Source of the DNA: Mesorhizobium norvegicum
Lineage (GTDB): Bacteria > Pseudomonadota > Alphaproteobacteria > Rhizobiales > Rhizobiaceae
Direction of reading: 5' to 3'
Length of the DNA: 64,000 nt
Assembly (NCBI RefSeq): GCF_004919685.1
Contig: NZ_SMYZ01000021.1
Location: forward strand, 7,203-71,202
Shown: positions 51,416-53,234 of the stretch, one piece after another
Layout: each line of letters begins with the position of its first letter
How positions within the stretch are numbered: position 1 is the first letter of the stretch
Made by a program: the position numbers and the translations under genes
Notes under the pieces: model-generated
Told to the model about the DNA's origin: nothing
The model's input: the letters and a program-made list of their open reading frames with translations, nothing else
Databases searched by the model: none

Positions 51416-51898
51416 TTATTCACAGCGCACGGTGACCGTGCCCTGATAGGTGCCGGCGGGAAAGATACCGCTCGACTTGGTGGCGGTGAGGTCGACCTGC
51501 ATCGGGTGGGTGCCGTTGACGACCCGCTGCGGCACACTTCCGTTGATGTCGACCCCCGAGCCATCGAGGCGGAAGACCGAAGCGAAGGTCACGTTGGTGC
51601 CGCCGCCGCTCGGCGCGGACGAGAATGCGGCAGGCGCCGGCGCCGAAACCGAATAGCAGTCCAGCAAGTTGAGCAAGGAGCACAGCAGGGAGCTTGCCAC
51701 GATGGTGGCGCTTGCGCTCGATCCGCCGGCCTGTTTGGAACCCAGTATGCTGATGGCGGGATTTGCGGTCATCGTTCCCGATGCCCCGACCATGATGGTG
51801 CAAGTGCCGATGATCGCCGCTTGCAGCGGAAGGCAGAAGCCGGCAAGTGCTGCCATTGCAAGCAGCGCGCGGCTATTTCTTCTTCTTTTTCTTGCCAT
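51416..51898 (-). CDS. SCPU/pilin-like exported protein, last gene of a four-gene operon
   Basis: 160 residues: signal peptide (MARKRRRNSRALLAMAALAG, cut near LPLQA), then a Ser/Gly/Thr-rich beta domain. Cys occurs in IIGTCTIMVGASG near the mature N-terminus, in LLCSLLNLLDCYS, and in the final TVTVRCE. The N-terminal Cys and last-residue-but-one Cys mirror those of the first gene in the operon (GTVAPTCTLVV; TVTLRCE). In SCPU-domain and chaperone-usher pilins such a pair links the first and last strands. The start overlaps the upstream gene by 26 bp. Family assignment is inferred; role in surface fibre or coat is likely. Confidence 0.6.
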   Translation of the reverse strand: MARKRRRNSRALLAMAALAGFCLPLQAAIIGTCTIMVGASGTMTANPAISILGSKQAGGSSASATIVASSLLCSLLNLLDCYSVSAPAPAAFSSAPSGGGTNVTFASVFRLDGSGVDINGSVPQRVVNGTHPMQVDLTATKSSGIFPAGTYQGTVTVRCE

Positions 51899-52382
51899 CG
51901 CTTCCGGTCCTGATGCTCCAGCCTTCGTTGGCCCATCCGGGTGATGCGGCCGCGGGAGCGCTGGCGGCAACGCTCGCCGTCTGGCCGTCGGCGCCGAGGC
52001 CCATTTTGAGGAGCTTCAGCTCCAGTTGCAGGCGCTCGACCTCAAGCTCATAGAGGCGGCTGCAATCGACGCGCTTCGGCGTACGCCCGATCGGGATCAC
52101 CACCCGACCATAGGTGGCAACGCTGTTGTCCGACTGGCTGTTGCCTCTGATAACGCCGAGATCGACATAGGCGCCGGAGCCGGAGACGGCGGAACGGCAA
52201 GTGGTGCCGTCCGCGGCATGGACCTCGTCCTGGCCCTGGGGCAAGGTTACGCCGGGCAGGTTGAAGCCGCTCTCGTTCTGATTGAGGTTGTAGACATCCT
52301 CGGCCCCGGCGGGCGAGACATTCGCAAACGCAGCCGCGAGCGCAATCGTCAAGACTTGCGGTGCCCAAAAAACTTTCCGCAT
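51873..52382 (-). CDS. Exported protein of unknown function with C-terminal coiled region
   Basis: 169 residues: signal peptide (about 1-27, VLTIALAAAFANVSPAGA), then DVYNLNQNESGFNLPGVTLP, a central SGSGAYVDLGVIRGNSQSDN region with Cys in GTTCRSAV and VDCSRLY, an amphipathic helix (about 108-128, YELEVERLQLELKLLKMGL) and a terminal poly-lysine KKKKKK. The RVDCSRLYELEVERLQLE motif recurs in short rhizobial exported proteins, as I recall. It is flanked by a chaperone-like and a pilin-like gene and overlaps both neighbours, so it belongs to the same surface system. Confidence 0.62.
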   Translation of the reverse strand: MRKVFWAPQVLTIALAAAFANVSPAGAEDVYNLNQNESGFNLPGVTLPQGQDEVHAADGTTCRSAVSGSGAYVDLGVIRGNSQSDNSVATYGRVVIPIGRTPKRVDCSRLYELEVERLQLELKLLKMGLGADGQTASVAASAPAAASPGWANEGWSIRTGSDGKKKKKK

Positions 52383-52741
52383 ATCTGTGCCCTTATCTGC
52401 GTCTGTTGATTGGGAAAGGGGATGCTTTCGGTACAGATACGCACTTTACGCTCGGTGGTGCCGTCAAAGGGCACGACCACAAGGACGGGACGGGAAGCCT
52501 GGGAAGCCAGTTGGAAGACATTCGGAGAGATCCTGGCGTCTACTGGCTGAAAATCCTGATCGTAGACGTGGATTTCGACCTGGATCTTCCGGTCGTAGGG
52601 ATTGGCGGGGAAAACGCGGACCGCAAAGACGTCGGTGAAGCTGTTGACCTCGCCGCGCATCGGCGACATCGACTGAGCCTTGGCGGCAATGGGCGCCAAT
52701 CCGACGGCCAGTGCCGTCGCCAGGATTCGAGCATGTTTCAA
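52349..52741 (-). CDS. Half-size PapD-like periplasmic chaperone
   Basis: About 130 residues: signal peptide (MKHARILATALAVGLAPIAA), then one Ig-like domain with VNSFTDVFAVRVFPANPYDR, KIQVEIHVYDQDFQPVDARI, ISPNVFQLASQASRPVLVVV and RKVRICTESIPFP. This reads like the first domain of pilus chaperones, whose G1 strand caps subunits; the second domain (full length about 230) is missing. Two Cys (RICTES, QICGKF) could pair. Start is TTG with ggaggggtcc directly upstream; GTG 52759 is an alternative. It overlaps the downstream gene by 34 bp. Confidence 0.62.
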   Translation of the reverse strand: MKHARILATALAVGLAPIAAKAQSMSPMRGEVNSFTDVFAVRVFPANPYDRKIQVEIHVYDQDFQPVDARISPNVFQLASQASRPVLVVVPFDGTTERKVRICTESIPFPNQQTQIRAQICGKFFGHRKS

Positions 52742-52763
52742 GGACCCCTCCTTCGCCACGGCG

Positions 52764-53234
52764 TCATTCGCAGCGCAGCGTTACCGTTGCCTGATAGTTG
52801 CCGTTGGCGAAGCGGTTGCTGCCGCCCTTGGTGCCGGCGAGGTGGACCGAGACGAGATCGGCGCCGGGAGTGCTGATGCTGGTAGCCGAGCCGGTCTCAA
52901 CGATAGAATGCGCACCAGCGGCGGAGTAGGTCGGCGTCCAGGTCGTCGATGTGCTGTCGGCCGACGGCGCCGTCGTGGTGGTGACCGGATCGACACTGAG
53001 CGACACACCTCCGGTCGTCGTCAGCGTCACGGTTCCGGCAGAACCGCCGCTGTTGTGGGAGCTGAGGGACTGGAGATCGGGGCTGACCGTCATCGTGCCG
53101 GTGGTGGCAACGACAAGCGTGCAGGTGGGCGCGACCGTGCCATTGAAAATGACATTTTGCGTCGTGGCCAAAGCGGTCTGGTCGATGCTGGCAACCAGCA
53201 GAGCTGCGCCGAAGGCGGCGCGAAACAGTGCCAT
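52764..53234 (-). CDS. Pilin-like exported subunit, first gene of the operon
   Basis: 156 residues: signal peptide (LFRAAFGAALLVASIDQTAL, cut near ALA-TTQ), then a Thr/Ser/Gly-rich beta protein. NVIFNGTVAPTCTLVVATTG (about 27-46) places a Cys near the mature start, and the chain ends GNYQATVTLRCE. Between are alternating strands (TMTVSPDLQSLSSHNSGGSA, GVSLSVDPVTTTTAPSADST). The N-terminal pattern NGTV..TCTL is that of chaperone-usher-type subunits and SCPU proteins. No usher gene follows. It starts 220 bp from the next gene, downstream of an AT-rich stretch. Confidence 0.62.
   Translation of the reverse strand: MALFRAAFGAALLVASIDQTALATTQNVIFNGTVAPTCTLVVATTGTMTVSPDLQSLSSHNSGGSAGTVTLTTTGGVSLSVDPVTTTTAPSADSTSTTWTPTYSAAGAHSIVETGSATSISTPGADLVSVHLAGTKGGSNRFANGNYQATVTLRCE

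Follow-up and report, generated by a model that had tools for sequence, protein, structure and literature searches.

A gene module of rhizobia and phages that encodes a predicted single-domain pilus chaperone and pilin-like subunits without a linked usher

Current understanding is that pili built by donor-strand exchange require an usher, and a locus that appears to encode pilin-like subunits and a chaperone with no usher beside them raises the question of what such a gene set could build. The locus lies in the 64,000-nucleotide stretch of Mesorhizobium norvegicum DNA analyzed here (the window), part of a genome of 8.27 Mb, and consists of four overlapping or closely spaced minus-strand genes in the order S1-B-C-S2 at positions 51416 to 53234 (Table 1). 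It is flanked in the window by ribokinase-like and Ada-like genes, both named by eye. A preliminary description had proposed a minimal secreted-fiber or coat system that either uses another export route or borrows an usher encoded elsewhere. Of that interpretation, this study retained the chaperone, the subunits, and the absence of an usher but not the borrowed usher. The recognition of C as the hallmark protein, of S-B-C as the core, and of the module in phages goes beyond it.

Table 1. Features of the module, in window coordinates
Feature	Position	Strand	Description	Basis or further features
S1 (gene A)	52764..53234	-	Predicted pilin-like subunit, 156 aa; VIFNGTVAPT extension before Cys38; end ..TLRCE	AF2 model, mean pLDDT 91.4; Foldseek and VIA pilin matches; donor-strand-like motif
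B	52349..52741	-	Predicted single-domain PapD-type chaperone, 130 aa; TTG start	AF2 model, mean pLDDT 86.3; Foldseek and VIA matches to chaperone N-domains
C	51873..52382	-	Secreted protein, 169 aa; conserved Cys 62 and 107; PHROG 37374	Heptad-like helix (by eye); C-terminal W..GW motif
S2 (gene D)	51416..51898	-	Pilin-like, 160 aa, without N-terminal extension; proposed tip subunit	
C/S2 overlap	51873..51898	-	Origin of the C poly-Lys tail and of the basic signal-peptide start of S2	Direct reading

The arrangement first described, with overlaps or a 22-bp gap between four minus-strand genes, agrees with the coordinates, start codons, and dN/dS ratios obtained here. The start of B at position 52741 lies behind a GGAGG and is fitted by the 22-nt gap to S1, while C overlaps B by 34 nt and S2 overlaps C by 26 nt, with the S2 ATG at position 51898 inside the 3′ end of C. 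As median dN/dS ratios were only 0.19 to 0.20 per gene (largest value, 0.431; 48 of 49 loci, with all four genes comparable with those of the window), the four genes are real and under purifying selection. Sec-like N termini were recognized by eye on all four proteins, in line with the signal peptides of the earlier reading. The poly-Lys end that had been pointed out in the third protein, C, is present, and C has no Pfam match. However, this end and the basic MARKRRR start of S2 come from one stretch of bases read in different frames, and poly-Lys is absent from more distant C proteins. The tail is therefore a by-product of overlapping frames and offers no functional clue, and C itself belongs to a listed phage protein family (PHROG 37374).

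Structure prediction points to a chaperone-like fold for B. Most of the core of the B model had pLDDT values above 90, and ranks 1 to 22 of a Foldseek search of the PDB were all pilus-chaperone entries (best E value, 1.6e-5), including SafB, DraB, Caf1M, FaeE, FimC, and CsuC, with MSP domains next. VIA placed B residues 23 to 130 on the first domain of Caf1M with a Z score of 11.2 over 105 residues. As unrelated Ig-like domains reach a Z score of 10.3 against the same model, the strength of the assignment lies in the unbroken run of chaperones. B proteins are about 115 to 140 amino acids long and have one domain, the second chaperone domain being absent. Overall, B is predicted with confidence to be the N-terminal domain of a PapD-type chaperone and nothing more, in line with the half-size PapD-like chaperone proposed previously.

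Profile comparison (hhalign) of B with 15 conventional chaperone N-domains gave 6% and no significant link, and the value was still not significant (24%) when viral B proteins were included. The kinship of B with conventional chaperones thus rests on fold. In PapD, Arg8 and Lys112 form the basic pair that anchors the subunit C terminus. Residues R29 and K123 of B match this pair by position only; R/K is kept in rhizobia, and several phage B proteins lack R29. Of 27 distinct viral or plasmid tails, 26 have a Lys or Arg after the second Cys of B; this residue was absent from three jumbo-phage B proteins and from those of the bacterial genomes G917, G1133, and G1149.

The two outer genes of the module encode proteins that had been described as beta-rich subunits with matching Cys placement and RCE ends. 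Among 53 aligned S proteins both Cys residues were invariant and the final Glu nearly so. The top eight Foldseek matches of the S1 model were all chaperone-usher pilins or pilin domains, albeit with weak E values (from 5.8e-3), and included CfaB, CS17, CsuA/B, PapG, and a P-pilus rod. VIA Z scores did not exceed 6.5, which is within the background range of the tool, and the nonpilins CanA (cannula; 6.3) and PorA (6.1) were interspersed. The putative assignment of a pilin-like Ig fold to S1 accordingly reflects the ranking of the matches and not their significance, consistent with the earlier view of the subunits. The residues before Cys38 of S1 form an unpaired coil in the monomer model. S2 begins almost at its Cys and has no such extension; it could therefore accept a strand but not donate one, as a tip subunit would.

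A donor-strand-like pattern (hydrophobic-x-Phe/Leu-x-Gly/Ala/Val-x-hydrophobic, located 2 to 6 residues before the first Cys) was present in the sequences of all 80 S genes directly before B. It was found in 12 of 76 other S genes, 8 of these 12 occurrences lying inside the signal peptide. With a different pattern applied earlier, 34 of the 53 aligned S proteins matched, compared with 6.8% of shuffled N termini. In viral S proteins a looser motif was detected in 29 of 39 distinct N termini, a count that is unsure because a signal-peptide Cys was sometimes taken. All of these patterns were picked after the sequences had been viewed. A similar stretch precedes the first Cys of FimA, FimI, FimF, and FimG of Escherichia coli K-12, as judged by eye only. 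In some genera an extra S gene follows S2, and there the donor-strand-like motif is again present (L096, L097, and L098).

The C protein is the conserved hallmark of the module. Window C matches PHROG 37374, a family listed as of unknown function, with an E value of 1e-10. When 14 C proteins of rhizobial, viral, and plasmid origin were aligned, the Cys pair and the Leu-Tyr that follows its second member were invariant; the Leu-Tyr is not kept in C of two jumbo phages or of G1133 and G1149. Most rhizobial C proteins have the W..GW end after a variable linker. C adjoins or overlaps B at almost all loci, consistent with the two proteins acting together. In a C tree the rhizobial proteins grouped with the plasmid row, with no direction of transfer apparent; this tree was built without any marine rows, some of the Vibrio-phage rows, and two more rows, one of which had been read on the wrong strand.

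The profile check suggested in the preliminary description (SCPU, PapD_N, fimbrial) gave no match, and Pfam, including its Usher profile, matched none of the module proteins. Sequence searches of Pfam, NCBIfam, PADLOC, and the PDB with S, B, and C returned noise only. Among phage families, window S2 matched PHROG 25895 with an E value of only 0.028, and window B had no PHROG match. Two candidate families were considered and taken as chance: PF21254 for C (5 of 29 C members; best E value, 0.005) and CsgH for S (1 of 48 S members; E value, 0.23). A literature search limited to one open-access library turned up no account of a pilus chaperone module with a single-domain chaperone or without an usher.

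The module recurs in related genomes. Within the bacterial family, B was detected in 26 of 199 genomes, representing 15 of 109 genera. The 49 loci returned by a search with C belong to Mesorhizobium, Aminobacter, and three records whose names give only a higher rank, and both genes flanking the module in the window were present in 46 of them, so that the module is an old resident locus within this group. The operon is also present in Mesorhizobium ciceri WSM1271 (L045). One Mesorhizobium locus (L064) carries two S genes before B and is without both flanking genes. Gene order is kept across genera: the survey of synteny, another check raised by the preliminary description, yielded S-B-C-S in 63 of 79 loci, with S-B-C-S-S and S-B-C in 5 each and six other variants once each in the remaining 16 (some genomes were entered twice, and some loci are cut by locus ends). 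The S-B-C unit is tandemly repeated in genomes G123 and G040. S, B, and C were present in all 17 neighborhoods compared (16 of about 19 kb and the window). The next most common group, encoded at 41.3 to 42.7 kb of the window and probably a large family counted together, occurred in 6 of 17, and other groups occurred in 4 of 17 among the first 30 groups listed, with reading-frame shadows of S, B, and C set aside. The core is therefore S-B-C, and S2 is an addition.

Wider searches gave lower bounds, because scoring was confined to a few top candidates in each genome. A class-level search with the rhizobial C profile detected C in at least 2 of 385 genomes, the second being an assembly with 10% contamination whose match contains a stop. 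A wider C profile (A5) identified at least 9 of 398 genomes of the phylum (4 of 212 genera). Five of these belong to the genus of the window, its own genome included, and one is another alphaproteobacterium with S-B-C. The remaining three (G917, G1133, and G1149) come from other families and have the order B-C-S, with weak S matches (E values, 0.0025 to 0.0034).

Beyond the rhizobia, S-B-C occurs in Vibrio phages (siphophages and T5-like phages) and marine viral contigs, as well as on a Vibrio plasmid and on a small number of other proteobacterial chromosomes. Profile comparison of the rhizobial proteins with five viral or plasmid sequences each gave 97.9% for S, 97.1% for B, and 99.7% for C; taken singly against the rhizobial profiles, two proteins matched weakly (Vibrio plasmid S, E value 0.048; phage K251 g3 B, E value 0.073). 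Queries with the proteins of Vibrio phage K251 g3 returned 185 phage records for C (180 Vibrio, 3 Erwinia, and 2 Klebsiella) and 179 each for B and S, all Vibrio, many of these records being near-identical isolates or duplicates. S, B, and C were consecutive in 62 of 68 viral loci, 4 of the other 6 being cut by contig ends; four contigs had been fetched twice. In marine contigs the genes are part of a longer block, X1-X2-S-B-C-CC, which was complete in 43 of the 68 viral loci. In this block (e.g., L161:3801-6902, among L141-L205), X1 corresponds to phrog_20531, X1 and X2 look exported, and CC, with a single hydrophobic segment, resembles a coiled-coil protein.

The C gene of Vibrio phage K251 g3 (L148:4947-5285) is annotated from an internal ATG, and an in-frame upstream TTG adds a signal peptide; the added N-terminal stretch is conserved in related phages. 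Shortened starts were also seen in K478b (L149), vB_VhaS-tm (L150), and Ceto (L212). The Vibrio nigripulchritudo plasmid encodes S, a two-domain S-like protein, B, and C. Its B gene (L140:5547-5948) has a GTG start, lies between the S-like gene and C, and is not in the PLSDB gene table, which is incomplete; an EAL-domain gene follows C. A C relative was also located at positions 1097403-1097828 of a Vibrio sp. THAF190c plasmid (NZ_CP045339.1), where no gene is listed.

A query with C of Klebsiella phage Eowyn returned 24 records (13 Klebsiella, 6 named Serratia, 3 Erwinia, 1 Stenotrophomonas, and 1 Raoultella), and the gene order in the three Klebsiella jumbo phages examined is B-C-S. Their C is certain (98.9% in profile comparison), and their B is likely (85.7% versus viral B and 1% versus rhizobial B alone). 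The S assignment is based on position, size, and two Cys residues only, with a profile link to S of at most 3.7%. As a separate line of evidence, a search of predicted viral structures with the rhizobial B model placed a 116-residue Eowyn protein at rank 2 (E value, 2.9e-4); the annotated Eowyn B gene comprises 116 codons plus a stop.

These findings would be best accommodated by a donor-strand pilin module that dispenses with an usher, a reading to which we give even chances. It starts from the observed gene set, order, conservation, and lack of a linked usher and from the predicted folds of B and S1; strand exchange, polymerization, export or surface exposure, and the role of C are inferred. 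Sec would export all parts, and B, as a single PapD-type domain, would complete the open Ig fold of S in the periplasm via its last (G1) strand. S1 might then release B and take up the N-terminal strand of the following S1, giving a short fiber or coat, with S2, which has no donor strand, as a receiving-only end or cap. C could substitute for the usher as an anchor or assembly factor. The fold match of B, the ranking of S1, the motif in every S gene before B, the coil extension, the repeated S-B-C units, and the lack of an usher profile (PF00577) match in 29 of 34 genomes count in favor of this reading. The lack of a profile or Pfam link, the low S1 Z scores, basic residues that are not universal, the incomplete and post hoc motif in viral S proteins, and the lack of a pore-like component count against it. 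A broader proposal, which we hold more tentatively, is that S-B-C forms a distinct class of secreted fiber or coat, a minimal three-protein donor-strand machine without usher common to phages (siphophages, T5-like, and marine phages, with B and C in jumbo phages) and proteobacterial chromosomes. In infecting phages it might serve to remodel the surface of the host, and in bacteria it might be kept as a surface structure or phage shield.

Phage contexts bear on the main rival to this pilin reading. A large PHROG 10818 protein is encoded directly upstream of S in all four Vibrio phages scanned. In Vibrio phage Ceto, S-B-C lies between large proteins, adjoins a tail-fiber assembly gene, and precedes holin and endolysin genes, and in one marine contig the module lies among tail and head genes. 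Envelope action during infection would be the common denominator of the phage contexts. Such neighbors are consistent with a nonpolymeric secreted blocker, in which S, matured by B and held by C, would cover receptors or alter the surface. Its role in phages would be superinfection exclusion or the protection of progeny against debris, and bacterial copies would be a resident form of this shield. The Sec-like starts of S, B, and C, seen by eye, indicate that these proteins would act outside the cytoplasm, and T5 offers a parallel, as its receptor-blocker gene lies beside the receptor-binding gene. However, a monomer would not readily account for a donor-strand-like motif in each of the 80 S genes before B, and three jumbo phages have no annotated fiber or lysis genes beside the module. 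Receptor blocking remains the main rival, though a somewhat unlikely one.

It is less probable still that strand exchange builds a polymer or scaffold that stays in the periplasm. No recurrent outer membrane protein was found beside the module in the 17 neighborhoods, as would suit a nonexported product, but the additional S genes and the resemblance of S2 to a tip point to a displayed structure, and C could be the missing anchor.

A chaperone-usher system that borrows an unlinked usher, as the preliminary description had allowed, would find ushers in the family (PF00577 in 22 of 199 genomes). A profile search detected no PF00577 match in the genome of the window, and only 2 of the 26 genomes with B had one. 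With B in 26 and PF00577 in 22 of 199 genomes and both in 2, co-occurrence is about what independence gives, if the two 199-genome lists are taken as one set. Conventional chaperones (PF00345, PapD_N) were likewise present in 2 of 26 genomes of an overlapping set. Eight further module-bearing genomes included three with PF00577, one of them below the curated cutoff, each away from the module. Altogether, among 34 distinct module-bearing genomes, 29 had no match, 5 had a match elsewhere, and none had one beside the module, which agrees with the earlier statement that the operon has no usher or two-domain chaperone, B having one domain. Borrowing is thus quite improbable. One locus filed in the family (L107, genome G158) does encode an usher (E value, 1e-164) beside a PapD-like chaperone and is possibly contamination (value 4). 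A curli-like system is more doubtful than any other reading: curli systems include small Ig-like periplasmic chaperones, but CsgG (PF03783) was found in 3 of 26 module genomes and not in the genome of the window.

If the usher-less reading is true, the module would show how such polymers can be made or anchored by a much smaller set of proteins. It may represent an undescribed means of building or coating the cell surface. Its presence in unrelated phages would also suggest a role for three PHROG families listed without function. These families, PHROG 25895, 25455, and 37374, contain S, B, and C of K251 g3 (E values, 5e-40, 5e-43, and 6e-49, respectively); all are of unknown function, and PHROG links them neither to pili nor to each other.

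Among characterized systems, the archaic chaperone-usher systems of the Rhizobiaceae occur in the same bacterial family and have two-domain chaperone and pilin genes beside an usher; the distribution of B is independent of theirs, and a profile link is not detectable. The chaperone-usher pathway as a whole (PapD, FimC, and Caf1M; Fim, Pap, CFA, and Csu) shares with the module the predicted chaperone N-domain fold of B and predicted pilin-like subunits with a donor-strand-like N-terminal extension. In contrast to that pathway, the module lacks an usher gene and the second chaperone domain, has the extra conserved protein C, and has no protein that belongs to a Pfam family; none of its components resembles an outer membrane pore. 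As both an usher and a two-domain chaperone define chaperone-usher systems, the module was not classed as one. Overall, it probably works like the periplasmic half of those systems.
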